Below the pieces are notes generated by a model. It did not search any database and had not been told where the DNA came from. It worked only from the letters and a program-made list of their open reading frames with translations. A program made the translations under genes and the position numbers. Shown here one piece after another: positions 22,839 to 34,953 of a DNA stretch of 64,000 bases (position 1 is its first letter; each line of letters opens with the position of its first letter). The stretch lies in assembly GCF_018476525.1 (NCBI RefSeq), contig NZ_JAHCST010000006.1:1-64000 (forward strand), written 5' to 3'. This DNA comes from Acrocarpospora catenulata (GTDB taxonomy: Bacteria > Actinomycetota > Actinomycetes > Streptosporangiales > Streptosporangiaceae).

Positions 22839-23192
22839 CTACGTACCGGATTCGGTCATCGGGAAGTGGCAGGCGACATAGTGACCGGGACGGGCCTCGG
22901 CGATCTCCGGCGCCTGGACCGCGCACAGCTCCCGCGCCCGGTGGCAGCGGGTGCGGAACCGGCATCCGCTCGGCGGCGCGAGCGGCGACGGCGGCTCCCC
23001 CGACAGCAGGCGCCTGGGCCGAGGCGCGTCGGGATCGGGTTCCGGGATCGCGCCGATCAGCCCGTAGGTATAGGGATGCAGAGGGTGCCGGTACAGTCGT
23101 CCGGCTGGGCCACCTCGCAGACCTTGCCGAGGTACATGACCATCACGCGGTCGCTGACGTTCTTGATCACGGCGAGGTCGTGGGCGATGAAG
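22839..23192 (-). pseudogene. 3' part of transposon-disrupted oppF-type ATPase gene
   Basis: Reads from the transposon edge [20 protein letters not shown] and [12 protein letters not shown] one-base deletion then moves the frame to [20 protein letters not shown], and it ends with the oligopeptide-transporter C-terminal motif [16 protein letters not shown] and [10 protein letters not shown], stop at 22839. These are the His-switch and oligo/dipeptide C-terminal domain missing from the 5' part at 33205-33856. Joining both parts after removing one TGAAG restores TMLFIAHDL. The extra frameshift suggests decay after insertion. Confidence 0.88.
23188..23192. repeat. Target site duplication, left copy (TGAAG)
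   Basis: TGAAG directly abuts the left terminal repeat and is repeated at 33205-33209 next to the right one. Five base pairs is the usual target duplication of Tn3-family elements. Confidence 0.92.
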
Positions 23193-23242
23193 GGGGTCCC
23201 GGTAGCAATGAAGAAATTTCCAACGGATATACCGCTGACCTG
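23193..23242 (+). repeat. Left terminal inverted repeat of the Tn3-family element (50 bp)
   Basis: Begins GGGGTCCCGGTAGCAATGAA and ends ACCGCTGACCTG at 23242. It is identical over 50 bp to the reverse complement of 33155-33204, then similarity falls off apart from a short AATACA block. Tn3 repeats are usually about 38 bp, so this is on the long side. Confidence 0.95.
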
Positions 23243-23294
23243 CGACAATACACGGCTCTATGACTGAGGTCTCGGTTCGCTTACGGTGTGGACC

Positions 23295-23606
23295 ATGAGC
23301 GACGACAAGCCGGAGTTCGGGTACGGCCAGGGACTGCGGCCGTTGTGGAGCGCGCGTGACCGCGACGCCGAGCGGATCCGTGAGGCGTTGCGCGGTGCCG
23401 GGCTCGTGGAGTTCAGCGACAGCCGGGCCGGATTTGTGGTGGAGGGCGGCGGGGATGGCAGAGCGTTCCTGGTGGTCTTCGCCGGCCCTGGGAGCGTCGC
23501 CGGGCAGCGGGTCGCCTCCTACGCCGGGGCGCTGGCCGCGGCTGGGATGAGGGCCGAGCCCGACGCCGACGACGATCAGGCGCCGCGGGTGTGGCTGCCT
23601 TCATGA
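23295..23606 (+). CDS. Small hypothetical protein carried by the transposon
   Basis: A 103-residue protein from ATG 23295 (an upstream in-frame ATG lies at 23286). The sequence [20 protein letters not shown], a short helix and two beta-rich stretches ([20 protein letters not shown]) suggest a compact alpha/beta fold. No family was recognised. It sits 52 bp inside the left terminal repeat and ends 35 bp before the convergent recombinase gene. Its role in transposition or as cargo is unknown. Confidence 0.62.
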
Positions 23607-23641
23607 GCGCGGTGATCGCCCTGATCAGCAGGGGGTGGGAA

Positions 23642-24610
23642 TCAGCGAGGACGGCGGCGCTGGATGGGATCGGCTTCGGCGGTGACGCGGGCGGAGGTCT
23701 CCTCGCCGAGGCGTACGTAGCGGCCGAGGCTGGCCAGGTGTTGGTGGCGGCTCTTGGCCTGCAGTTCGGGCGCGGTCCGGCCGGCTTGGGCGAGATGTTG
23801 GAGCGCGCTGTGGCGGAGCTGGTGGAGCGTCCATCCCTGCCGGTGCGGGTCGAGCGTGGCCGAGGCGGTCTTGAACAGGTATTCGGCGCGCGGGTAGGAC
23901 AGCCGGCCGCGTTTGGTGGTCGGGTCGATGTCGGCGGCCGCCCGCGTGCGCGGGCCCGAGGCAGGAGCGCGCCGGTCGGCCAGGAACACCGGTCCGCTGG
24001 TGCGGCCGGTCAGCAGGCGGGGCAGCAGCCGGGCGGTGGGGGTGGCCCAGTGCACGTACTCGATGGCGCCGCCCTTGGAGACGACGCGGGCGCGGCGGAA
24101 CTCCAGGTCGAGGTCTTCGACGTTGAGGGTGAGGATTTCCTCGGCGCGGGCGGCCGTGTCGTACAGGAGCCTCCACAGCACCCGTTCGCGCAGGGCGTGG
24201 GCGGGGCCGGTGAAGAGCGTCTCCAGCCGGGCGGCCGGGATGGCGCGGTCGCCGCGCCGGGCGGGCTTGCGCCGTTCCAGGCGCCGGGCCGGGTTGGTGG
24301 CCAGCAGGTCCTGGCGCTGTGCCCAGGTGGTGAAGGAGACCAGGGCGGACAGGTGCCGGTTCCAGGTTGCGGCGGCCGCGGTCTTCCAGCGGTCCATCAC
24401 CGCGGCGTAGTGCTCGGGCTGCAGGGCGGCGACGGGATGTGCCGGCCCGGCCATGGCCGTCAGGCGGGCGAGGGTCTCGGCGTAGCTGGCGCGGGTGGTG
24501 GCCGTGGTGATGGAGTCGAGAAAGCGCTCGACCGCGACCGCGACCGTGATCGTCGCGCCAGCTACGTCGGGGACGGAGTCGGGCTGGCCGGGGAAGGCCA
24601 CGACGGACAT
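23642..24610 (-). CDS. Tyrosine recombinase (TnpI-like resolvase of the Tn3 element)
   Basis: A 322-residue protein; ATG 24610 follows GGAGGAGG, which decides the start. The SAM-like N-terminal core-binding domain spans residues ~20-115. The catalytic domain shows Arg155 (DTAARAEEIL), Lys179 in a beta-hairpin, HQLRH at 263-267, His291 and the nucleophile Tyr298 (SLGRYVRLGE). This full catalytic set indicates an active XerC/D-like enzyme. Some Tn3-family elements (the Tn4430 type) use a tyrosine recombinase TnpI instead of a serine resolvase to resolve cointegrates; position and nearby repeats fit that role. It reads toward the left terminal repeat. Confidence 0.88.
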   Translation of the reverse strand: MSVVAFPGQPDSVPDVAGATITVAVAVERFLDSITTATTRASYAETLARLTAMAGPAHPVAALQPEHYAAVMDRWKTAAAATWNRHLSALVSFTTWAQRQDLLATNPARRLERRKPARRGDRAIPAARLETLFTGPAHALRERVLWRLLYDTAARAEEILTLNVEDLDLEFRRARVVSKGGAIEYVHWATPTARLLPRLLTGRTSGPVFLADRRAPASGPRTRAAADIDPTTKRGRLSYPRAEYLFKTASATLDPHRQGWTLHQLRHSALQHLAQAGRTAPELQAKSRHQHLASLGRYVRLGEETSARVTAEADPIQRRRPR

Positions 24611-24633
24611 GGGGCGGTCCTCCTCCGAGGCGA

Positions 24634-24740
24634 TGTGACACATAATGTTGCCGAGTCGCCGTCGCGGCGGCGGACGCCGAGCTGGGCCGACACGGCCCAC
24701 CGGCTGCCATTGTGACAGATAATTGAAGTTCTGTGCCACA
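24634..24740. promoter_or_regulatory. Putative internal recombination site (res/IRS) upstream of the tyrosine recombinase
   Basis: Two direct copies of TGTGACA(C/G)ATAAT lie at 24634 and 24711. The second is the left arm of an imperfect inverted repeat: TGTGACAGA at 24711-24719 against TCTGTGCCACA at 24730-24740, about 10 bp apart. Paired arms around a short AT-rich core plus an accessory direct repeat is the layout of TnpI sites in Tn4430-like elements. It could alternatively be an operator for the recombinase gene. Confidence 0.5.
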
Positions 24741-24828
24741 CTGCCGGTCCGGGTGGTGGCCAGCGACTCCGCACGGCATCCGGTGTCACGAGCCCTGAGC
24801 CGCTCAGCCATCGACGAAGTTCTTCCGG

Positions 24829-25941
24829 TCAGGCCACGGCATGGAGCCTTCTGGCCGGCGGGGTGGCCGCCGGTGGCCGCTGTCGGGGTCCCGGCAGTGC
24901 CAGCCGCAGGACGCGTTTCCAGACCGAGCCGACCTGGCGGGTCAGGGAATCGGAGGTGTAAGGGAGGCCGAACCGGTCACACAGGGCCCGGACCCGGGGC
25001 GCTATCTCGGCGTACCGGTTGCTGGGCAGGTCGGGGAACAGGTGGTGTTCGATCTGGTGGCTCAGGTTGCCGCTCATGATGTGGAACAGGGGGCCGCCGT
25101 CGATGTTGCAGGAGCCGAGCAGCTGGCGGAGATACCACTCACCGCGGGTTTCGCCTTGGAGGCGGTCCTCGGTGAAGACTTCGGCGCCGTCGGGGAAGTG
25201 GCCGCAGAAGATGATGGTGTGCGCCCACACGTTGCGGGCCAGGTTCGCGGTCAGGTTGCCCAGCAGGGCGGGCAGGAAGGCCGGTCCGGCGAGCAGTGGG
25301 AAGGCGATGTAGTCCTTGATGATCTGGCGTCGCGCCTTGCCGGCCACTACGCGCAACTGGGCCAGGGCGTCGGTCAGGCTCTTGTCCCCGGATGGGACGC
25401 GTTCGAGTTCGAGGTCGTAGATCGCGATGCCGTACTCGAAGAACAGGGCCAGCAGCGCGTTGTAGAACGGCTGGGCGAGGTAGATCGGGTGCCATTGCTG
25501 CTCGGGAGTGATCCGCATCACCGAGTAGCCGATGTCCCGGTCCTTGCCGAGCACGTTGGTCCAGGTGTGGTGGACGAAGTTGTGGGAGTGTTTCCACAGG
25601 CTGGCCGGGCAGACGATGTCCCACTCCCAGGTGGTCGAGTGGATCTTCGGGTCGCGCATCCAGTCCCACTGCCCGTGCAGGACGTTGTGGCCGATCTCCA
25701 TGTTCTCCAGAATCTTCGCGGTGGCCAGCGCCGCCGTCCCAGCGGCCCAGGCGGGGGGCAGCCAGGAGGCCAGCAGCAGCGCCCGGCCGCCCAGCTCCAG
25801 CGTGCGCTGGGCGGAGATGACGCCGCGGATGTAGCGGGCGTCCCGCTCGCCGAGGTCGGCGAGCACCTCCTCGCGGATCTTGTCCAGCTCACGGCCGAAC
25901 TCCTCGATATCGGCCCGGGTGAGATGTGATGTGCCGGTCAT
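24829..25941 (-). CDS. Membrane fatty-acid desaturase, DesA3-like (acyl-CoA delta-9 type)
   Basis: A 370-residue di-iron membrane desaturase started at ATG 25941. The three histidine boxes are present: HNVLHG at 85-90, HSHNFVHHTW at 118-127 and HQIEHHLFP at 295-303. Hydrophobic pairs lie around residues 50-80 and 210-245. The overall sequence resembles mycobacterial DesA3 (Rv3229c), which makes oleoyl-CoA from stearoyl-CoA using the reductase Rv3230c. Here the reductase homologue lies just upstream with an 11-bp gap, reproducing the mycobacterial pair within a transposon. The gene looks intact. Exact regiochemistry cannot be read from sequence. Confidence 0.88.
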   Translation of the reverse strand: MTGTSHLTRADIEEFGRELDKIREEVLADLGERDARYIRGVISAQRTLELGGRALLLASWLPPAWAAGTAALATAKILENMEIGHNVLHGQWDWMRDPKIHSTTWEWDIVCPASLWKHSHNFVHHTWTNVLGKDRDIGYSVMRITPEQQWHPIYLAQPFYNALLALFFEYGIAIYDLELERVPSGDKSLTDALAQLRVVAGKARRQIIKDYIAFPLLAGPAFLPALLGNLTANLARNVWAHTIIFCGHFPDGAEVFTEDRLQGETRGEWYLRQLLGSCNIDGGPLFHIMSGNLSHQIEHHLFPDLPSNRYAEIAPRVRALCDRFGLPYTSDSLTRQVGSVWKRVLRLALPGPRQRPPAATPPARRLHAVA

Positions 25942-25952
25942 GCGCGTTCCTT

Positions 25953-27125
25953 TCAAAACTCCAGCTCGACGGGACCTGCGGCGGCCGACACGCAGGTCTG
26001 GATCAGATCGCCCGCTTCGCCGTGGATCAGGCCGGTACGCAGGTCGCGTACCCGGCCGGAGCGCAGCCGCCCCACGCAGCTGTGGCAGATGCCCATGCGG
26101 CAGCCGCTGGGCATGAGAACCCCCGCCTCCTCGCCGACGGTCAGCAACGGCGTCGCGCCGTCGGCGTCCGCCTCCCGGCCGGTCGTGGTGAAACGCACGC
26201 GCCCGCCCGCCGTGCCGGATGCCGGAGCCACCGGGCGGAAGGGCTCGGCGAAACGCTCCACGTGCAGCCGATCCACCGGCCCGGTCCACTCGGCCGCCAG
26301 TTCGTCGAGCATCCCGGCCGGCCCGCACGCCCAGACCGAACGCTGCGTCCAGTCCGGGCACAGGCCGGCCAGGTCCGCCGGCCCGAGCCGTCCCGCGCTC
26401 CGCGTGTGCCGCTCATGCAGCCGCAGGTACGGCGATCGCGCGGCCAGGCGCCGCAGGCGTTCACCGAAGATGACCTCCCCCGGTGTCGGCGCCGAGTGGA
26501 CCAGCACCACGTCGGGCGGCTCGCCTCGCCGGTGCCCCGGCGGCCGCCCGGCGTGGACGGCCGGCGCGCCCGCCGGGGAAGCCTTCGCCGTGCCGCGGCC
26601 GGTGGGGATGTCGCCGGCCAGCAGGCTGCTCAGCATCGCCATCACGGGGGTGATGCCGCTGCCGGCGGTCAGGAACAGCAGACGCGGCGGTGGCGGCTCC
26701 GGGATGACGAACTCGCCCTCCGGCCCGGCCAGCCTGACGACCGTCCCGGGCGGGGTACGCCGTGCGAGGTGATGGGAGACGAGCCCTCCCGGGATCGCTT
26801 TGACCGTGATCGTGATACAGCCGTCCGGCCGCTGCGGCGGTGAGGACAGCGAGTAGGTCCGCCAATGACGCCGCCCCTGAATCTCGACACCGATCCGGGC
26901 CCATTGGCCGGGGCGGTGCGCCCGCCAGCCACGGCCCGGGCGGATCACCAGGGTGACCGCGTCGGCGGTCTCCGGGCGAAGGCCCTCGACCCGGCCGCGC
27001 AGTTCCCCAGCGGGCCAGAGCGGATCCAGCAATCCAAGGTAGTCCTCCGGCGACAGAGGCGTCGACAGCCACCGCCCGGCCCCGGCCAGCGACCCCAGAA
27101 CCCACGGCCAAGCTGAAGTGATCAC
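25953..27125 (-). CDS. Ferredoxin reductase-like flavoprotein with 2Fe-2S domain (Rv3230c-like), desaturase partner
   Basis: A ~390-residue electron-transfer protein. The start is taken as GTG 27125 because the product then aligns in outline with Rv3230c (LSPEDYLGLLDPLWPAGELR near the N-terminus); the frame is open further upstream. FAD-binding RTYSLSSPP is at 89-97, the NAD(P)-binding GSGITPVMAML follows, and a plant-type 2Fe-2S cluster has Cys342, 347, 350 and 378 (CRMGICHSC...C). It would pass electrons from NAD(P)H to the downstream desaturase, which starts 11 bp after its stop. A Pro/Arg-rich insert sits in the NAD domain. Confidence 0.88.
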   Translation of the reverse strand: MITSAWPWVLGSLAGAGRWLSTPLSPEDYLGLLDPLWPAGELRGRVEGLRPETADAVTLVIRPGRGWRAHRPGQWARIGVEIQGRRHWRTYSLSSPPQRPDGCITITVKAIPGGLVSHHLARRTPPGTVVRLAGPEGEFVIPEPPPPRLLFLTAGSGITPVMAMLSSLLAGDIPTGRGTAKASPAGAPAVHAGRPPGHRRGEPPDVVLVHSAPTPGEVIFGERLRRLAARSPYLRLHERHTRSAGRLGPADLAGLCPDWTQRSVWACGPAGMLDELAAEWTGPVDRLHVERFAEPFRPVAPASGTAGGRVRFTTTGREADADGATPLLTVGEEAGVLMPSGCRMGICHSCVGRLRSGRVRDLRTGLIHGEAGDLIQTCVSAAAGPVELEF

Positions 27126-27658
27126 GGGCGTGATCCGGCCGCGATCCGGTTCAGCTTCCCCAGCACCTCCCGCGCCCGGGTCATGATCCGGGCGGGCGAG
27201 CCGACGGCTCAAGGGTGTCCGCGACGGTCATCACGCATGATCGCCTTTCTTGGGCGTGGAAGAGGACAGTCCTGTCGATCACATCCGGGTAATTCCCGCT
27301 GATTCATAAAGGAGATTCCGCCGCTTCACCCGCAATCAGTAGATTCGCGCGGCGCTGGGCCGACCGCCACCAGCCAAACAACATAGGTGATGGGCATCTC
27401 CAGCAGGGCACGGCCGGTTGCCGGGGGCCCGCGCCAGCCCTGGCATGATCCTCGAAGCCGTTTCGGTGGTCAGCGGCCTTCGCCGGGACGCGTTTCCGGA
27501 AGTCAAAAATGCATATCCACCTCCAGAATTGCGAGATTCCAAAAATCAGGGGGTATGATGAAAGAACCGAGGACATTTCGAGCGTTGGCAATCAGGCTGG
27601 CGTCGCCCACGGCGATACACCTTCGGCCCTTCAGGGGCTCGGACAGGCCAGGCAAGCC
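27126..27658. other. Divergent regulatory region inside the transposon
   Basis: About 530 bp between the leftward desaturase operon and the rightward DUF5994-like gene. It is AT-richer than the flanks at 27270-27320 and 27505-27570 (e.g. GATTCATAAAGGAGATTCC, AGTCAAAAATGCATATCC), as expected for two divergent promoters. A GGGTAT at 27551 resembles a SigB-type -10 but no GTTT -35 sits at the right distance. No gene was recognised here. Confidence 0.4.
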
Positions 27659-28213
27659 ATGACGCCAACACTTCTTTCTCATTACACGCCACTGAACCCC
27701 GTCGCGTCCGCGATTCCCCGCGTCGACTCCCCGGTCCGGCTCAGCCTGAATCCCGTACGGGATCGGCGCGTCACCGTGGACGGAGCGTGGTGGCCCTACT
27801 CCCGCGACGCCGCCGCTGAACTGCCCGGCCTCATCGCCGCCGTCGATCAGCGGCTCGCCGGGACCACGCTGCGGATCGGCCTGCGCCAGGACGAGTGGGA
27901 CCACATCCCGCACCGCATTCCGGCCCGCGGGCGGCAGGTGAGAATCGGCTGGTTCAGCCACGCCGAACCCCACGTGCTCACCATGAGCCTGGCAGGCGCG
28001 GAACCGATTGCCCTGCTGGTCATCCCGCCGGGCACCACGACCGGTCCCGCCGAGGCCGGACTCAAGCTCGCCGCTGAGGACACCACCGGCTTCGCTCCGG
28101 CCGAGATCCTCACCATCGCGCACCTTTTCACCGCACCAGATGTCGGCTTGGCATACGAGGACGACTCACCCGCCTGGGAGAACGAGGGCGGGTACGTCAC
28201 CGCCCAGCCGTAG
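27659..28213 (+). CDS. DUF5994-like protein
   Basis: A 184-residue protein from ATG 27659; the frame is open upstream to 27509 but that part is poor coding sequence. It shows the actinobacterial family pattern PVRLSLNPVRDRRVTVDGAW, WWPYSRDAAAELPGLIAAVD and a later HRIPARGRQVRIGWF. Members are small cytoplasmic proteins of unknown function, often near anti-sigma-factor antagonists. Here the next gene is a STAS antagonist, supporting a stress-signalling connection. No catalytic residues are evident. Confidence 0.72.
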   Translation: MTPTLLSHYTPLNPVASAIPRVDSPVRLSLNPVRDRRVTVDGAWWPYSRDAAAELPGLIAAVDQRLAGTTLRIGLRQDEWDHIPHRIPARGRQVRIGWFSHAEPHVLTMSLAGAEPIALLVIPPGTTTGPAEAGLKLAAEDTTGFAPAEILTIAHLFTAPDVGLAYEDDSPAWENEGGYVTAQP

Positions 28214-28346
28214 ACCCCATTCGCTGACCCGCGCGCGAACCGCGCGCCGTTCGCCGGCCGGTTCGAGCCGGGACGCCACCGCCCAACCGCACCGCTCGGC
28301 GGGCCTAAATCGCTGCTATTCCTAATCTTCTCCGATCGGAGATCCC

Positions 28347-28670
28347 ATGAACGTCATCGACCCGTCACCGCTCGGGCTGGCCGGCCCATCGGCCCCCACC
28401 ATCATCCGCCTGTCCGGAGACATCGACATTCTCACCAGCCCAGAGCTTCGCCAGCGACTGACGAGCACGCTGAGCTACAGCACCAGCCTGCTCATCCTCG
28501 ACCTGTCCGGGGTCACATTCTGCGACGCCTCAGGCCTGTCCGTCCTGGTCGGCATCCAAAACCGCGCCCGAACGATGGGCATCACACTGGCCCTGACCGC
28601 GCCCCGTCCATCCATGTCCCAGCTGCTGCGCAATACCGGCCTGGACCGCAGCCTGCCGATGGTGGCCTAA
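28347..28670 (+). CDS. STAS-domain anti-sigma factor antagonist
   Basis: A 107-residue single STAS domain starting at ATG 28347 behind GGAGA. The core is IIRLSGDIDILTSPELRQRL, LLILDLSGVTFCDASGLSVL and the C-terminal helix MSQLLRNTGL. Ser62 in CDASGLS is at the phosphorylation position of SpoIIAA/RsbV-type antagonists. Such proteins release a sigma factor by binding an anti-sigma kinase; no kinase or sigma gene lies in the transposon, so it would act on host partners. The next gene begins 4 bp after its stop, so it is co-transcribed with a desaturase. Confidence 0.88.
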   Translation: MNVIDPSPLGLAGPSAPTIIRLSGDIDILTSPELRQRLTSTLSYSTSLLILDLSGVTFCDASGLSVLVGIQNRARTMGITLALTAPRPSMSQLLRNTGLDRSLPMVA

Positions 28671-28674
28671 GCGG

Positions 28675-29724
28675 ATGCACGACCAGCCTCCGGACCAGGC
28701 CTACGACGGGCTATCACCGTTCCCACACACCGACCCACACCCCACCGCCCATGCCGGGCAGGTGGCTGTCACGGCCACGATCGCGATCGCGCCTTTCATC
28801 GCGCTGGGCGCCGGCATCTGGCTGGCATGGGGAACCGGGATCACCCTCACCGACCTCCTGCTGGCCACGGTGTTCTACGTCGTGACCGGCCTGGGGGTGA
28901 CGGTCGGCTTCCACCGGCTGTTCACCCACCGTTCCTTCACCGCCCGCCCCTGGCTGCGCGCCGCACTGGCCATCGCCGGGTCGATGAGCTTCCAGGGCAA
29001 CCTCATCGACTGGGTGGCCGTTCACCGCCGCCACCACGCCTTCACCGACCGCCCCGGCGACCCGCACTCCCCCTACCGCTACGGCACCCACCTCGGTGGG
29101 CAGTTGCGCGGTCTGGCCCACGCCCACCTGGGCTGGCTGTTCACCGGCGAGCCCACCTCAGCCGCCCGCTACGCCCCCGACCTCCTGCGCAACGATCCGG
29201 CCATGCTGCGCATCTCACGCGCCTTCCCCGCCCTGTGCGCCGCCTCCCTGATCCTGCCGTTCGCCGCGGGCTGGGCGATCAGCGGCAGCCTGTACGGCGC
29301 CCTGACCGCCTTCATCTGGGCCGGGCCGGTCCGCATCGCCCTGCTGCACCACGTGACCTGGAGCGTCAACTCCCTCTGCCACACCATCGGCAACCGGCCC
29401 CACCTCACCAGACTCCACGACCGCTCCACCAACCTGTGGCCACTGGCCCTGCTGTCCTTCGGGGAGAGCTGGCACAACGGCCATCACAGCCAGCCCAGCC
29501 GCGCCCGGCACGGCGATCCCGGACAGATCGATCCCTCGGCCGCGCTCATCCGCCTGTTCGAACGCCTGCACTGGGCCACCCACGTGCGCTGGCACACCCC
29601 CGGCCACCTCCAGCACCATCGCACGGTAGCCGGCAAACACACCCTGCACAGCCAGCACGCGGTGCCCCGAAGCGGCATCGCCCACGACGCGACCCGCACC
29701 GACCCAGCGCCTGGATCCGGCTGA
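28675..29724 (+). CDS. Acyl-CoA desaturase, delta-9 (OLE1/SCD) type
   Basis: A 349-residue membrane desaturase from ATG 28675. Histidine boxes are HRLFTHRSF at 80-88, HRRHHAFTD at 117-125 and ESWHNGHHS at 264-272, with the extra NSLCHTIG site, all typical of the SCD family and distinct from the DesA3-like enzyme in the same element. Hydrophobic segments flank the boxes (30-75, 95-115, 180-230). No fused cytochrome b5 is present, so an external reductase is needed, perhaps the one encoded at 25953. The C-terminal ~45 residues are polar and His-rich. Confidence 0.9.
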   Translation: MHDQPPDQAYDGLSPFPHTDPHPTAHAGQVAVTATIAIAPFIALGAGIWLAWGTGITLTDLLLATVFYVVTGLGVTVGFHRLFTHRSFTARPWLRAALAIAGSMSFQGNLIDWVAVHRRHHAFTDRPGDPHSPYRYGTHLGGQLRGLAHAHLGWLFTGEPTSAARYAPDLLRNDPAMLRISRAFPALCAASLILPFAAGWAISGSLYGALTAFIWAGPVRIALLHHVTWSVNSLCHTIGNRPHLTRLHDRSTNLWPLALLSFGESWHNGHHSQPSRARHGDPGQIDPSAALIRLFERLHWATHVRWHTPGHLQHHRTVAGKHTLHSQHAVPRSGIAHDATRTDPAPGSG

Positions 29725-29833
29725 GCCGGACATCCGGGAGCGACCAACATCAAGGACCTGGACAAACGAGGCCTCGGCCAGCACCAGGCGATCTGTTCCA
29801 TGCCACCATCGCGCCGACTGCTGTCTCGCAACC

Positions 29834-29859
29834 GTTCCAGATCGAGGTCGATCTGGAAC
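29834..29859. repeat. 26-bp perfect palindrome between desaturase and tnpA
   Basis: Arms GTTCCAGATCGA and TCGATCTGGAAC are separated by GG, with no run of T after it. A related half (GATCTGTTCC) lies about 45 bp upstream. It could act as a terminator between the convergent desaturase and tnpA genes or as a protein-binding site. The remainder of 29725-30017 holds no gene. Confidence 0.7.
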
Positions 29860-30017
29860 AGTCGCGCTCGCCGGGCCTGGCCGCCCTCATCCCCGGGCGT
29901 CGCCAGAACACGCGCCCAGCCCCGTTTAACGCCGATACCATGACGGCCCCTCCGACCACGTGCTGCAACTCACCGTCCTGCTCACACGACCGCGCCATAG
30001 GCGCGGCGCAGGGCCGC

Positions 30018-33000
30018 TCACGGCATCAGCCCCAGCTCGCGCAGCTGCGCGGGCCGCAGCGGCCGCCATCCACTGGTGTCGAGCTTGGCCAGCTCCGCCT
30101 CGACGTCCACGTTGATGACGCCGAAGAAGTTGATGTTGTCGCTGTGGCCGGGCGAGATGTGCGACAGCAGCTCATCGGGCACCTCGCGACCCTGGGAACG
30201 CAACTCCAGCACCGCTCTCGAATAATATTCTGTCGTCCACGCGATCACCGAGTTGGTCAAAACGGTCAAACACCACGCCTGTTCGGTCTGCTGCTCCAGG
30301 TGCGGGCGGGTGACGGCGCCCTGCTGGGCGTAGTGCAGGTCCCTGCGCAGCGCGTGCAGGCTCTCGCCCTTGTTCAGCTGCCGGGAGATCTTCCGCCGGA
30401 ACGCCGGGTCCGACAGGTATTTGGCCAGGTGCACGGTCCTTCTCAGCATGCCCCACTCCTTCAGCGCGGCGGCCAGGGTGTTCTGCCGGGAGGCGGCCGA
30501 CCACTTGCCGACGATCAGCGAGGCGGTGGCCTGGCCGTACTTCAGCGACCCGGCCATCCGCAGCAGGTCGCTCCAGCAGCCGGCGACCAGGTCCTCATTC
30601 CACCGCGCGCCCAGCAGCGGCCCCGCATGCGGGTAGCGCTTGGTGATCTCGGTGGGGGTGTCGTCGCGAACCAGGGTGACCCGGGCCAGGTCCCGCATCC
30701 TGGGAGTGAGTGCCTTGCCGACCAGGTCGAACAACGCGAAGTTGATCAACGTGGCCCCATGGGAGTCGGTCGCGTGCTCATCGATCGGAAGGTCGGTCGC
30801 GTTGCCGAGGAAGTCGTCCAGCACGTAGTGCGCCTCCCGCGCCGTCGGCACAATGATCTTCGTGCCGTACGTCGACCACTGATCCGAGACATGCGTGTAG
30901 GTCGACAGCACCTGACCCCCGTGGATCACCATCGTCCGGGCGCTCAGGCTTTTGCCCCGCACGGGGAATCGCTGGCCGTCGGAGGAGGACATGGTGCCGC
31001 CGCCGAACACCCTGGCCAGCTCCAGGTTGTAGTGGTGGTTGACGATGACCGTGTTGGCCTCGCGCAGCGTCTCCTCCCGGATGTACCACTCCATCGTCCA
31101 GGCCAGCACGTCATAGGACACCCCGCAGGCCTCCGACATGCGGGCCAGGCCCAGATTCGTTGCCATCGCGATGAGAACGGCGAGAATGTTGCGCTTGGTC
31201 TCCACCGACGTGGTCAGCTTGCGGCCACCGGCGTGGGTGAAGCAGTCCAGGAAACTTGTGCGGGCGTCCAGCTCGATCAGCAGCGAGGCGATCGGCGCGA
31301 ACGGCAGCATCGCGGCCAGCTCGTCCTTGAGCGCCTTGGCCTCCGCCGGCACGTCCTCGGCCGACAGCGGCGGCACCACCAGGTGCTCGTCCTCATCCAG
31401 CCGGACCATGCCGACGTCATCGGGACTGGCCTCGGCCAGGGTCTTGTCCAGCCCGGTCAACGCCGCGTGCAGTTCCTCCTTGCCCTGCTCCAGCGCGTCG
31501 GCCGTGCTGGCCGGCTTGCCCACCAGGCGGCAGTACTCGGCGCGCTTGGGCTCCCACTGCTCGGGCGTGTAGAGATAGGTGGCCGGGTCGGCGTAGCGGC
31601 GCGAGCCGGGCACGAACACGTCCCCGCTGCGCAGCCCATCGCGCAGGCACAAGATCACACACAATTCCCAGTAGTGGCGGTAGGCGGTGTCCTCCCCGGA
31701 CTTGCGGGCCCGCTCCAGGTAATCGGCGTACCGGGCGGGCACGAAGCCGGTCGGCGCGCCCGCGGGCACCTTGCGGCCGCCGAGCCGGTTCAGCCCCTGC
31801 AAGATGGCCACCGCCTCCATCAGCTCGCTCGTGCCCGGCCCGCCCTGGAAATCGATCGCGGCCAGCACATTCGGGGTGAACTGGCGCAGGTAGGTGTAGG
31901 AGGCCTCCAGCTCCGACAGGCGGCCGTGGTCCCTGGGCAGCGGCTTCCACGCATCGGAGGTGATCTCCCGCAGCCGCTGCATGCCGATCCGCTCCCGCAA
32001 CAGCCCGCCCACCTGCTCGTCGGAAATGGACGGATCGGCCAGCACGGGAAGGATGATGTCCATCAGCAGTTGCCGGGCCTCGCCCTTCTTTGCCCGCTCG
32101 ACCAGCGCCTCGTCGGTCTTGGCCTTCGCGCGGGACTCCCGCGCGGACACGGCCTGGTCGAAGAGCCCCACCACCTCATCCAGCTGGTCGACCGCAGCCT
32201 GGGCGAGGAAGGCCAGCAGGATCGGGAACTTGCGCTCCTTGCGCCGTTCCAGGCCCTGGTTGGTCGAGCGGCGCGCGACCTGGGCCAAGAACCGGCGACG
32301 CTCGTTCGGCAGCACCGACAGGTCCATCTGGTGGGCATCCACCGCGCGCAGCCATGTCAGCTTGTCGATCGCGGTCTTCACCGATGCCGCCGAGGCGTCC
32401 TTGGCCGGAGCGACCAGCCACTCCAGCCGCGTCATACCCAATCCGGCATCAACGACGAGCATCCGCTCCAGGTCGGCGCGGACATCACCGGTCAGCAGGT
32501 GCGCCACCATCTGCGAGGTCAGATCGGAGGCGGCCTTGCGCGCCGTGCCGACCATCTTCGCCAGGATGAGCGCGCCGGGCCGGATCACCCTCGCCGCCAT
32601 CAGATACTCACGCGCCAGGTTGAACAACAGCGTCGGCGAGTCGTGCTCCATCGCCCGATCCAGCAGAAACTGCTCGAGTTCCTTCATCGCCCGGCTGCCT
32701 GCAGGAGCCGTCTTCCACTCCAGATACTTGGCGACCTGGACCAGATGGTCTGATCGGGTCTGGGCCCGATTCCCGTACAGCGATAACGCCGAAGGATCTA
32801 CGCCCAGCCGGTCCGCGACCCGGGCCACCGCCACCGGCGGCGCCGTGGCCACATCATCGGGCACGAACCCGAGCCACGGCAGCGTGCACAGCTGGACCAT
32901 CATGCCCAGCCGGTCCACCACGCCCCGCCCGCGACCCGGGTCGACGAACGCGACGTCTGCCGCCGTGGGCGTGAAGTATCGGATCAACTCTTCTCTGCTG

Positions 33001-33059
33001 ATCTCCGGGAACGAACGCAGCTGTTCCAGCTGCTCTTCGGAGAACATTTTCTCTGACAA
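30018..33059 (-). CDS. tnpA: Tn3-family transposase TnpA
   Basis: A 1,013-residue transposase, full length for the family (~1,000). It opens with the DUF4158-type DNA-binding region (SEEQLEQLRSFPEISREELI ... VQLCTLPWLGFVPDD) and ends in the DDE catalytic half. That half contains the conserved blocks SSSDGQRFPV (first Asp), DEHATDSHGAT (second Asp), the LNKGESLHALRRDL block where the Glu is expected, and ISPGHSDNINFFG. TTG 33059 is the likely start (ATG 33047 is also in frame). It reads leftward from 95 bp inside the right terminal repeat. No internal stop or frameshift is present, so it should be active. Confidence 0.95.
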   Translation of the reverse strand: MSEKMFSEEQLEQLRSFPEISREELIRYFTPTAADVAFVDPGRGRGVVDRLGMMVQLCTLPWLGFVPDDVATAPPVAVARVADRLGVDPSALSLYGNRAQTRSDHLVQVAKYLEWKTAPAGSRAMKELEQFLLDRAMEHDSPTLLFNLAREYLMAARVIRPGALILAKMVGTARKAASDLTSQMVAHLLTGDVRADLERMLVVDAGLGMTRLEWLVAPAKDASAASVKTAIDKLTWLRAVDAHQMDLSVLPNERRRFLAQVARRSTNQGLERRKERKFPILLAFLAQAAVDQLDEVVGLFDQAVSARESRAKAKTDEALVERAKKGEARQLLMDIILPVLADPSISDEQVGGLLRERIGMQRLREITSDAWKPLPRDHGRLSELEASYTYLRQFTPNVLAAIDFQGGPGTSELMEAVAILQGLNRLGGRKVPAGAPTGFVPARYADYLERARKSGEDTAYRHYWELCVILCLRDGLRSGDVFVPGSRRYADPATYLYTPEQWEPKRAEYCRLVGKPASTADALEQGKEELHAALTGLDKTLAEASPDDVGMVRLDEDEHLVVPPLSAEDVPAEAKALKDELAAMLPFAPIASLLIELDARTSFLDCFTHAGGRKLTTSVETKRNILAVLIAMATNLGLARMSEACGVSYDVLAWTMEWYIREETLREANTVIVNHHYNLELARVFGGGTMSSSDGQRFPVRGKSLSARTMVIHGGQVLSTYTHVSDQWSTYGTKIIVPTAREAHYVLDDFLGNATDLPIDEHATDSHGATLINFALFDLVGKALTPRMRDLARVTLVRDDTPTEITKRYPHAGPLLGARWNEDLVAGCWSDLLRMAGSLKYGQATASLIVGKWSAASRQNTLAAALKEWGMLRRTVHLAKYLSDPAFRRKISRQLNKGESLHALRRDLHYAQQGAVTRPHLEQQTEQAWCLTVLTNSVIAWTTEYYSRAVLELRSQGREVPDELLSHISPGHSDNINFFGVINVDVEAELAKLDTSGWRPLRPAQLRELGLMP

Positions 33060-33154
33060 CGCACCGCCTCATGTGCCGCTCCGGACGAATCCGGAACGAA
33101 CGTAGCGGCAGTGATCATCAGTCCGCCATAGATGGTCAAGCTCCTGTATTAGCC

Positions 33155-33204
33155 CAGGTCAGCGGTATATCCGTTGGAAATTTCTTCATTGCTACCGGGA
33201 CCCC
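33155..33204 (-). repeat. Right terminal inverted repeat of the Tn3-family element (50 bp)
   Basis: Exact reverse complement of 23193-23242. The outer end is CCCC at 33201-33204, directly followed by the TGAAG duplication (33205-33209). Confidence 0.95.
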
Positions 33205-33209
33205 TGAAG
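33205..33209. repeat. Target site duplication, right copy (TGAAG)
   Basis: Matches 23188-23192 exactly and lies next to the right terminal repeat. Confidence 0.92.
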
Positions 33210-33856
33210 AGCATCGTCAGCCGGTAGCGCTCCTTCATGTCGGCCAGCAGGTTGAGGATCTGCGCCTGCACCGACACATCGAGCGCCGACACCGGCTCGT
33301 CGCAGATGACGATCTCCGGATCGAGGACCATCGCCCGGGCGATCGAGATGCGCTGGCACTGCCCGCCGGAGAACTCGTGCGGCCGGCGCTCACCCGCGGT
33401 GTCCGGGTCGAGGCCGACGACCTCCAGGATCCTGCGCACCTTCGCGTCGATCTCGGCGGCGGACAGGTCGCCGGAGATGTGCAGCCCCTCCCCGACGATG
33501 TTCTTGACCTTCCTGAGCGGGTTGAGGGAGGAGATCGGATCCTGGAAGATCATCTGCATCCGCCGGCGGAGCCGCCGCAGCTCGCCGCCGCGCAGGGTGG
33601 TGAGCTCGCGCCCGTCCAGGCTGATGCTGCCCGCGGTGGGCGGGGGTAGCTGCATGACCGCCTTGGCGACGGTGGACTTGCCGCACCCGGACTCGCCGAC
33701 CAGGCCGAGCGTCTCGCCCTGCCGGATGTCGAAGCTGACATCCGACACGGCGTGGACCTTCTCCGCCCGTCCGGTGGCGTACTCGACGCGGAGGTTGCGC
33801 ACGGACAGCAGGGCTGCCTCCTCGTCGTGCAGGTGAGCGGTGCCGCTTCCGGCCAT
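33205..33856 (-). pseudogene. 5' part of transposon-disrupted oppF-type ATPase gene
   Basis: About 217 codons remain from ATG 33856, which overlaps the stop of the upstream ATPase gene (TGATG). Walker A GESGCGKST, Q-loop MIFQDPISSLNP, a signature with an unusual Cys (FSGGQCQRIS instead of GGQRQR) and Walker B IVICDEPVSALD are present. The fragment ends LTMLF at the transposon, then reads 17 foreign codons into the terminal repeat. The His-switch and C-terminal domain are on the other side at 22839-23192. A truncated product could not hydrolyse ATP normally, so this importer may now need an ATPase from another Opp system. Confidence 0.92.
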
Positions 33857-34953
33857 CAGAGTCTGCTCCCTTCCGTGACGGTGAGACCCGCCGCGGTACG
33901 TCCGTCGCGGAGGTTGGCCGCGAAGGCGGCCTCGCCTTCCGGTGTGCCCACCGGGAAGAAGCACGCGTGGCTGTGCGTGTCGTCGTCGCCCGTGCGCCGG
34001 AGCGCCGGGTCCTCGCTCAGGCAGCGTGGCCGGGCGTTGGGGCAGCGGGGGGCGAACCGGCAACCCGGCGGCGGATCGATGATGACCGGTGGACGGCCGG
34101 GTATGGCGTGTAGCCGGGTGTGGCTCGGCTCGGCGATGCGCGGGATGGAGCGGACCAGCGCGCGGGTGTAGGGATGCCGCATGGCGCCGAACAGCACGCG
34201 GGTGGGCGCGCGTTCCACGATCCGGCCGCCGTACATCACGGCGATCTCGTCGGCGTGCCCGGCGACCACTCCGAGGTCGTGGGTGATCAGGATCATGCCC
34301 ATGCCGTTCTCCGCCCGCAGTTGGTCGAGCAGTTCGAGGATCTGCTGCTGGACCGTCACGTCCAGGGCGGTCGTGGGTTCGTCGGCGATCAGCAGCCGCG
34401 GATCGCACGAGACGGCGAGCGCGATGGTGACCCGCTGCCGCATCCCCCCGGAGAGGTTGTGCGGATACTGCCGCAGGCGCTTGGCCGGTTCCGGGATGCC
34501 GACCTGGCGCAGGAGGTCCTCGGCCCGGCGGCGCGCGGCGGCCCGGTCCATGCCGAGATGGTGGCGCAAGACCTCGGTGAGCTGCCTGCCGATGGTCAGC
34601 ACGGGGGTGAGCGAGGTCATCGGGTCCTGGAACACCATCGAGACCTGGGAGCCCCACAGGTGCCGCGCCTGATCCTTGCTGATCGTCCGCAGGTCCTGCC
34701 CGTCCACGCTGATCCGCGAGTCGGGGAAGGTGAGCGCGTTGGGGGCGAGGATGTTCATGACCGCGCGCGCGAGGACCGACTTTCCCGACCCTGACTCGCC
34801 GACGACGCCGAGGGTCCTGCCTGGCCGCACGCTCAGGTCGACGCCGTCGACCGCGCGGACGAGGCCGCGGGGGGTGTCGAACCATACGCGCAGGTCGCGG
34901 ATGTCGAGCAGCGACGGGGAGGTGCGGGTGCCGTTCGCGAAGAGCGTGCTCAC
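33856..34953 (-). CDS. Oligopeptide ABC transporter ATP-binding protein, OppD-type
   Basis: A 365-residue ATPase from GTG 34953, whose start overlaps the permease stop (GTGA). All ABC motifs are present: Walker [11 protein letters not shown]-loop MVFQDPMTSLTP, signature LSGGMRQRV, Walker [13 protein letters not shown] and H-loop LITHDLGV. The C-terminal oligo/dipeptide domain carries PPGCRFAPRCPNARPRC, a Cys-containing motif of this subfamily, with a ~50-residue tail. It is the fourth gene of a five-gene leftward operon and would pair with the disrupted OppF-type subunit. Confidence 0.93.
   Translation of the reverse strand: MSTLFANGTRTSPSLLDIRDLRVWFDTPRGLVRAVDGVDLSVRPGRTLGVVGESGSGKSVLARAVMNILAPNALTFPDSRISVDGQDLRTISKDQARHLWGSQVSMVFQDPMTSLTPVLTIGRQLTEVLRHHLGMDRAAARRRAEDLLRQVGIPEPAKRLRQYPHNLSGGMRQRVTIALAVSCDPRLLIADEPTTALDVTVQQQILELLDQLRAENGMGMILITHDLGVVAGHADEIAVMYGGRIVERAPTRVLFGAMRHPYTRALVRSIPRIAEPSHTRLHAIPGRPPVIIDPPPGCRFAPRCPNARPRCLSEDPALRRTGDDDTHSHACFFPVGTPEGEAAFAANLRDGRTAAGLTVTEGSRL

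Follow-up and report, generated by a model that had tools for sequence, protein, structure and literature searches.

A complete Tn3-family transposon with a membrane-desaturase cassette in Acrocarpospora catenulata

The DNA analysed here, referred to as the window, is a 64,000-nucleotide stretch of Acrocarpospora catenulata (contig NZ_JAHCST010000006.1, positions 1 to 64,000) that holds, at 23193-33204, a Tn3-family transposon, complete and 10,012 bp long. Its cargo comprises two desaturases of different classes (desaturase 1 or DesA, and desaturase 2 or Des2), a ferredoxin reductase (FdR), a DUF5994 protein and a STAS protein. It is very probable that, taken as a whole, this is a complete transposon whose recombinase acts in resolution, whose desaturation cargo is made of two pieces, and which itself spread horizontally. 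An initial annotation of this DNA had listed the same cargo genes and a tyrosine recombinase, and Pfam matches bear out both. To that annotation the analysis adds proof of movement, the site of the recombinase, the variety of cargo and resolvases among related elements, and a probably mixed origin for the cargo. In the available part of PMC7157771, Tn3 elements are described as carrying genes for resistance to antibiotics and metals, for virulence and for catabolism; a mobile, complete element with a membrane-desaturase cassette would extend that list to lipid physiology.

The proposed mechanism draws on protein family, anatomy and gene order. TnpA would copy the element into new sites by replicative transposition, and the tyrosine recombinase would resolve the cointegrate at a site just upstream of its own gene. 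The cargo would have been joined from two parts: a reductase-desaturase operon whose nearest relatives are chromosomal copies in Acrocarpospora, and a DUF5994-STAS-desaturase set that most resembles sets in other genera. Together its enzymes would add double bonds to membrane acyl chains, with the reductase as electron donor for desaturase 1 at least.

Boundaries and empty sites

The inverted repeats (23193-23252 and 33145-33204) are 95% complementary over 60 nt and identical over the outer 50 nt, a perfect repeat of 50 bp where the Tn3 family has 38-40 bp or more. TGAAG abuts both outer ends as a target duplication, and 5 bp is the rule for such duplications in this family. Comparison of repeats and flanks upholds the initial annotation on the transposon, its perfect repeats and its duplication, and the coordinates that it gave fit the element exactly when the duplication is not counted. 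Starting at the tnpA end, the element consists of a repeat, tnpA (minus strand), desaturase 2, STAS and DUF5994 on the opposite strand, the ferredoxin reductase and desaturase 1 on the tnpA strand, the recombinase site and the recombinase, a 106-aa open reading frame (ORF) on the opposite strand, and the second repeat. A gap of 11 bases separates the reductase from desaturase 1 (with the chosen start of the latter), and one of 4 bases separates STAS from desaturase 2.

The insertion splits an ABC transporter ATPase gene, presumably of the oligopeptide type, and the flanks are its two parts; when they are rejoined with one copy of TGAAG, a single reading frame runs across the junction. In Acrocarpospora pleiomorpha NBRC 16267 (G001; the window genome is G000), the left flank (22860-23192) matches C7:132128-132461 and the right flank (33205-34895) matches C7:132457-134146. 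In a further congener (G003), the matches are C10:154909-154659 (left) and C10:154663-152974 (right). The flank matches overlap by exactly 5 bases in both genomes, and through-junction alignments of the joined flanks are 73% (G001) and 74% (G003) identical. Both congeners hold an empty site for the window insertion, the kind of site that the initial annotation had proposed to look for. A chance repeat was rejected on the strength of these two empty sites and of the same element standing in G001 at an unrelated locus, within a different duplication. Cargo at the same place without repeats, which the initial annotation had named as evidence against its own reading, was not found in these two relatives with a readable site, and a cassette fixed at this locus across relatives was rejected on the same observation. 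Relative to the G001 empty site, the interrupted gene has a 1-base gap near window 23097 and may therefore be decaying.

A second copy and horizontal spread

The second copy of the element, on A. pleiomorpha contig C4 (NZ_BLAF01000004.1), measures 9,122 bp and lies at a place other than that of the window insertion, within its own target duplication TGCTA; a second locus with a different 5-bp duplication is what the initial annotation had suggested seeking. All five cargo genes are present in this copy, and their order is unchanged. Three long blocks are 96.1%, 93.6% and 96.3% identical to the window in nucleotide sequence, and a block at the end 97.9%, while window 23290-23641, the region of the 106-aa ORF, is missing. 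An empty site for this copy was not found in a search with the left flank only, which gave short scattered matches in four congeners. Distant TnpA-like pieces flank the copy (L039 9592-9963, 34%; L040 14-814, 28%), the former overlapping its repeat by about 39 bases, and the copy may have inserted into a different Tn3 element or next to one.

DesA matches at E 1e-80 or better occur in 38 of 149 genomes (window genome included), and DesA lies between terminal repeats, compared by contig, in the window genome and G001 only; the repeat search scored at most six candidates per genome. Among plasmid records, none had at least 80% of the window element in one place, and nine had a match.

Between G000 and G001, identity at fourfold sites is 178/193 for DesA, 242/262 for FdR, 59/64 for STAS, 184/202 for Des2, and 73/79 and 345/357 for two parts of tnpA. 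These five element genes, a set that excludes DUF5994 and the recombinase, range over 91-97%, compared with 75% for gyrB (239/318) and 65% for a second gyrase-type gene (243/373; G003 rows excluded). Since the element genes are far above both core genes, the comparison indicates that the element reached at least one of the two Acrocarpospora lineages by horizontal transfer.

Transposase and recombinase

The transposase is full-length, as first annotated: TnpA has 1013 aa and matches Pfam DDE_Tnp_Tn3 (PF01526, 397 bits), DUF4158 and the NCBIfam Tn3 transposase NF033527 (737 bits). It aligns nearly end to end with TnpA of Tn4430 (PDB 7qd4, 401 bits). Three acidic residues, D694, D765 and E899, are kept in this alignment, at positions that we take to correspond to the catalytic D-D-E triad of Tn4430 TnpA.

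The recombinase resembles Xer-type recombinases (NCBIfam, PDB) and keeps R166, K190, H274, R277, H300 and Y309 (numbered from the ATG at 24643), which we take to be the catalytic residue set. Its open frame extends to 24811. A start at the ATG at 24643 was set aside and 24610 favoured, because that ATG is in frame in only three of eight aligned elements (window, Sinosporangium siamense and Microtetraspora fusca); it is out of frame in four and missing in G089. All eight elements were chosen for having the recombinase, and G089 matches less well. In them a palindromic core (window 24711-24740), with a direct copy of one arm 77 bases on, precedes the recombinase, and the half-site at 24634-24646 sits just upstream of the favoured start. 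The motif TGTGACASATAAT has exactly two exact matches in the window, both in the recombination site; with up to three mismatches there are nine window matches against 4.91 expected, and only the exact pair is informative. The exact core pattern occurs in 14 of 150 loci, drawn from six distinct elements. By this anatomy, the recombinase is most likely the cointegrate resolvase, acting at the conserved upstream site, and the window element would offer a defined, testable actinobacterial tyrosine-recombinase resolution system.

The closest parallel in layout is Tn4430, whose TnpA is homologous over nearly its whole length, whose tyrosine recombinase is colinear with tnpA, and whose site, an inverted core plus direct repeat, lies just upstream of the recombinase gene. 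According to the available part of PMC7157771, Tn4430 has no known passenger genes, its TnpI/irs system has four sub-sites (core IR1-IR2, DR1 and DR2), and TnpI occurs in only 3 of 190 Tn3-family members. Unlike Tn4430, the window element has several kilobases of cargo between tnpA and site, and compared with TnpI/irs (Tn4430, Tn5401) its core pair and one direct copy make one direct repeat fewer. The parallel with TnpI/irs is one of site layout. Searches of open-access literature gave no match for Tn3 with Streptosporangiaceae, an actinobacterial Tn3 resolvase, DUF5994 or an Acrocarpospora transposon, which is not to claim absence from print.

Function and origin of the cargo

Both desaturases match Pfam FA_desaturase (PF00487). 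The histidine boxes of DesA lie at H85, H120 and H295 (HNVLH, HNFVHH and HQIEHH), and those of Des2, picked among eight pattern matches, at H80, H117 and H267. Residues 62-274 of Des2, a bacterial protein, align with stearoyl-CoA desaturase (PDB 4zyo, E 1.8e-26) with the histidine boxes kept, and 4zyo and 4ymk were its only solved-structure matches at E 0.1 or better. Against solved structures, desaturase 1 gave chance-level matches only. It appears to resemble the Mycobacterium desaturase P9WNZ3, which in the available part of PMC5037126 is discussed with front-end types, yet acts as a first desaturase. The STAS protein scores as an anti-sigma factor antagonist (NCBIfam), which hints at stress-linked control, and a contribution of the cargo to membrane adaptation is plausible. 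The genes for DesA3 and Rv3230c of Mycobacterium tuberculosis are neighbours. Together the two proteins are reported to form a two-protein acyl-CoA desaturase (Chang and Fox 2006). By this description, DesA and its reductase would be like that pair in joining a membrane desaturase to an oxidoreductase, and they differ from it in being borne on a transposon.

In all 12 DesA loci read outside the element, the reductase gene adjoins that for desaturase 1, and the terminal repeat was not found in the stretches read there. The pair of the congeners G003 and G002 is 87% and 85% identical, respectively, to that of the element, and the pair occurs on Streptomyces plasmids at about 74% nucleotide identity. 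Trees of DesA and FdR place G002/G003 as the sister group of the element copies, whose clade also takes in G036 (support 0.966 and 0.992). The Des2 tree puts the element copies with G061 and a single copy from G047 (0.674 and 0.986), and in G061 and at the G047 copy DUF5994, STAS and desaturase 2 stand together. The cargo is thus probably a composite of the reductase-desaturase operon and the DUF5994-STAS-desaturase set, from two sources. A second DesA at E 1e-80 was not found in G000 or G001; each of them has a further relative of Des2, and the one in the window genome is 50% identical.

Related elements and the cargo slot

The search for the terminal repeat that the initial annotation had proposed gave matches in 22 of 149 genomes (the window genome included), all 22 of them in the taxonomic family of the window. 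A degenerate 35-base repeat pattern run on genome contigs found 28 stretches in nine genera, presumably all Streptosporangiaceae. Within 56 sequences examined there were 12 repeat pairs, seven of them with identical 5-bp flanks, and six of these seven are large elements: those of the window, A. pleiomorpha, S. siamense, Nonomuraea cypriaca, Herbidospora yilanensis and G013.

Cargo ORFs of related elements were picked by script and then scanned with Pfam. They encode an aldo/keto reductase, a pyridoxamine-oxidase-like protein and TetR in S. siamense; FAD-binding and MarR proteins, an epimerase-like protein and a hydrolase in G013; PadR, an ABC exporter, DoxX and a hydrolase in H. yilanensis; an NAD(P)-binding protein and two ORFs without a Pfam match in N. 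cypriaca; MFS, WYL and other proteins in M. fusca, where one repeat only was found; and MerR, a hydrolase and an S15 peptidase in N. gerenzanensis, whose 5-bp flanks differ. Because related elements carry so many kinds of cargo, the desaturase cassette is one load among several. The H. yilanensis and G013 elements have a serine resolvase; since the TnpA pieces of H. yilanensis are 85-95% identical to the window TnpA, resolvases have been exchanged within one TnpA group. The tnpA of H. yilanensis is broken by about 2 kb (L139 5216-7326) with a 389-aa ORF that has no Pfam match.

Homology falls away at two edges, the tnpA stop codon and the outer boundary of the core site. Among 12 tnpA copies, ungapped majority identity stays at 0.88-0.97 as far as the stop codon and falls to 0.42-0.63 beyond; among five elements (without G009) it rises from 0.48-0.54 ahead of the core site to 0.78-1.00 where that site begins. 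The elements of the window, A. pleiomorpha, N. cypriaca and M. fusca hold their cargo between these two edges. It is conceivable, if rather doubtful, that the recombinase site is both a resolution site and a cargo-exchange point, with blocks swapped between tnpA and the core site and the transposon serving as a metabolic-operon shuttle. If so, the desaturation cargo would be a membrane-lipid programme assembled from two chromosomal sources.

Relatives of the recombinase occur in 145 plasmid records, one of which was examined (Streptomyces longwoodensis, NZ_CP107737.1). Like the window element, this mercury-resistance region has a recombinase (62% identical), a palindromic site upstream of it, a TnpA fragment (64%) and cargo between fragment and site. 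Unlike the window element, it holds merA, merR, merB and related genes in place of desaturases, has a fragment only of tnpA, and has a diverged outer repeat half. An ungapped repeat scan of the locus gave no match; gapped alignment placed the inner half of the repeat in the 200 bases after the recombinase with a score of 33; the best of 1000 shuffles scored 23, and other parts of the locus 20.

Small units were also seen. A 1,977-bp unit (L146 1309-3285) has family terminal repeats and a duplication, TTACA; it holds one script-picked 384-aa ORF without a Pfam match, and a relative of the window TnpA was not found inside. Facing short repeat pairs at G064:C65:8166-8883 (about 718 bp) and G067:C66:387512-387709 (about 198 bp) are possibly miniature non-autonomous elements.

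Alternative readings

Vertical inheritance of the element from a common ancestor, with movement only within each genome, is favoured by the fact that the two carriers found are congeners with identical cargo order. This explanation was rejected on the fourfold sites given above, and it is further opposed by G003 and G004, which gave no terminal-repeat match with at most six candidates scored per genome, and by G002, whose repeat match lies on a contig other than that of its DesA, near a 66% TnpA piece; we regard it as very improbable. The recombinase might instead be cargo or a cargo-capture integrase rather than the resolvase of the element, as the use of a serine resolvase by two elements with related TnpA and the sharp end of homology at the core site, expected of a cargo-exchange point, would allow. 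Recombinase and site nevertheless adjoin the transposon end in elements with different cargo, and Pfam found no other recombinase among the eight window ORFs scanned, which leaves this explanation unlikely. We think it similarly unlikely that the cargo has no role in membrane unsaturation and that its desaturase-type enzymes act on another substrate. The available part of PMC5037126 places other oxidases, such as alkane monooxygenases, in the superfamily, and desaturase 1 has no solved relative by sequence; against this stand the alignment of Des2 with stearoyl-CoA desaturase and the adjacency of a reductase gene to that for desaturase 1 at each of the 12 loci read.

The reading of a complete, resolvable and horizontally acquired transposon with a two-piece cargo also has findings that weigh against it. 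The G001 copy lacks 729 bp of tnpA (window 31901-32629), the gap in the interrupted gene suggests that the window insertion is not fresh, and the yardstick for the fourfold sites consists of two core genes only. A second direct copy within three mismatches was not found at the recombination site, which leaves three sub-sites against the four of Tn4430. The cargo slot is not universal, because the S. siamense cargo lies beyond the recombinase and the G089 recombinase has the opposite orientation; some pairs, among them G072 and the N. basaltis copy, keep their similarity past the tnpA stop. Some branches of the cargo trees are weak (0.64-0.69), and in two of the three trees G036 sits on a long branch inside the element clade. 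G036 also has Des2, reductase and DesA in the same divergent order without the repeat, so that capture of the cargo as one block is possible rather than as a composite; its own Des2 groups away from the element Des2.

Feature list

Table 1. Features of the transposon and its insertion site, in window coordinates.
Feature	Position	Strand	Basis
Left target-site duplication TGAAG	23188..23192		Direct read of flanks
Left terminal inverted repeat, 50 nt, matching the right one exactly	23193..23242	+	Repeat comparison
106-aa ORF, no Pfam match	23286..23606	+	Pfam scan
Tyrosine recombinase, probable cointegrate resolvase	23642..24610	-	Pfam; start MSVV favoured
Putative recombination site: palindromic core 24711-24740 and direct half-site 24634-24646	24634..24740	-	Element alignment
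Desaturase 1 (DesA), chosen start ATG at 25941, third histidine box HQIEHH	24829..25941	-	Pfam
Ferredoxin-reductase type protein (FAD_binding_6, Fer2), conserved from near 27128, exact start uncertain	25953..27212	-	Pfam
DUF5994 protein	27509..28213	+	Pfam
STAS-domain protein, anti-sigma-factor-antagonist type	28347..28670	+	Pfam, NCBIfam
Desaturase 2 (Des2), stearoyl-CoA desaturase class	28675..29724	+	Pfam, structure-sequence alignment
TnpA transposase, D694/D765/E899	30018..33059	-	Pfam, NCBIfam, Tn4430 alignment
Right terminal inverted repeat	33155..33204	-	Repeat comparison
Right target-site duplication TGAAG	33205..33209		Direct read of flanks
N-terminal part of interrupted ABC ATPase gene	33205..33856	-	C-terminal part left of 23192

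Three of these features, the 106-aa ORF (23286-23606), the recombinase site (24634-24740) and the interrupted gene, go beyond the initial annotation. In some other elements, relatives of the 106-aa ORF sit next to recombinase and terminal repeat. On the same contig beyond the window, a partial terminal-repeat match (85%) lies at G000:C138:217881-217918 (L052 7882-7911), with a short recombinase-like stretch about 1.8 kb from it; the partial repeat is probably a relic of a related element.

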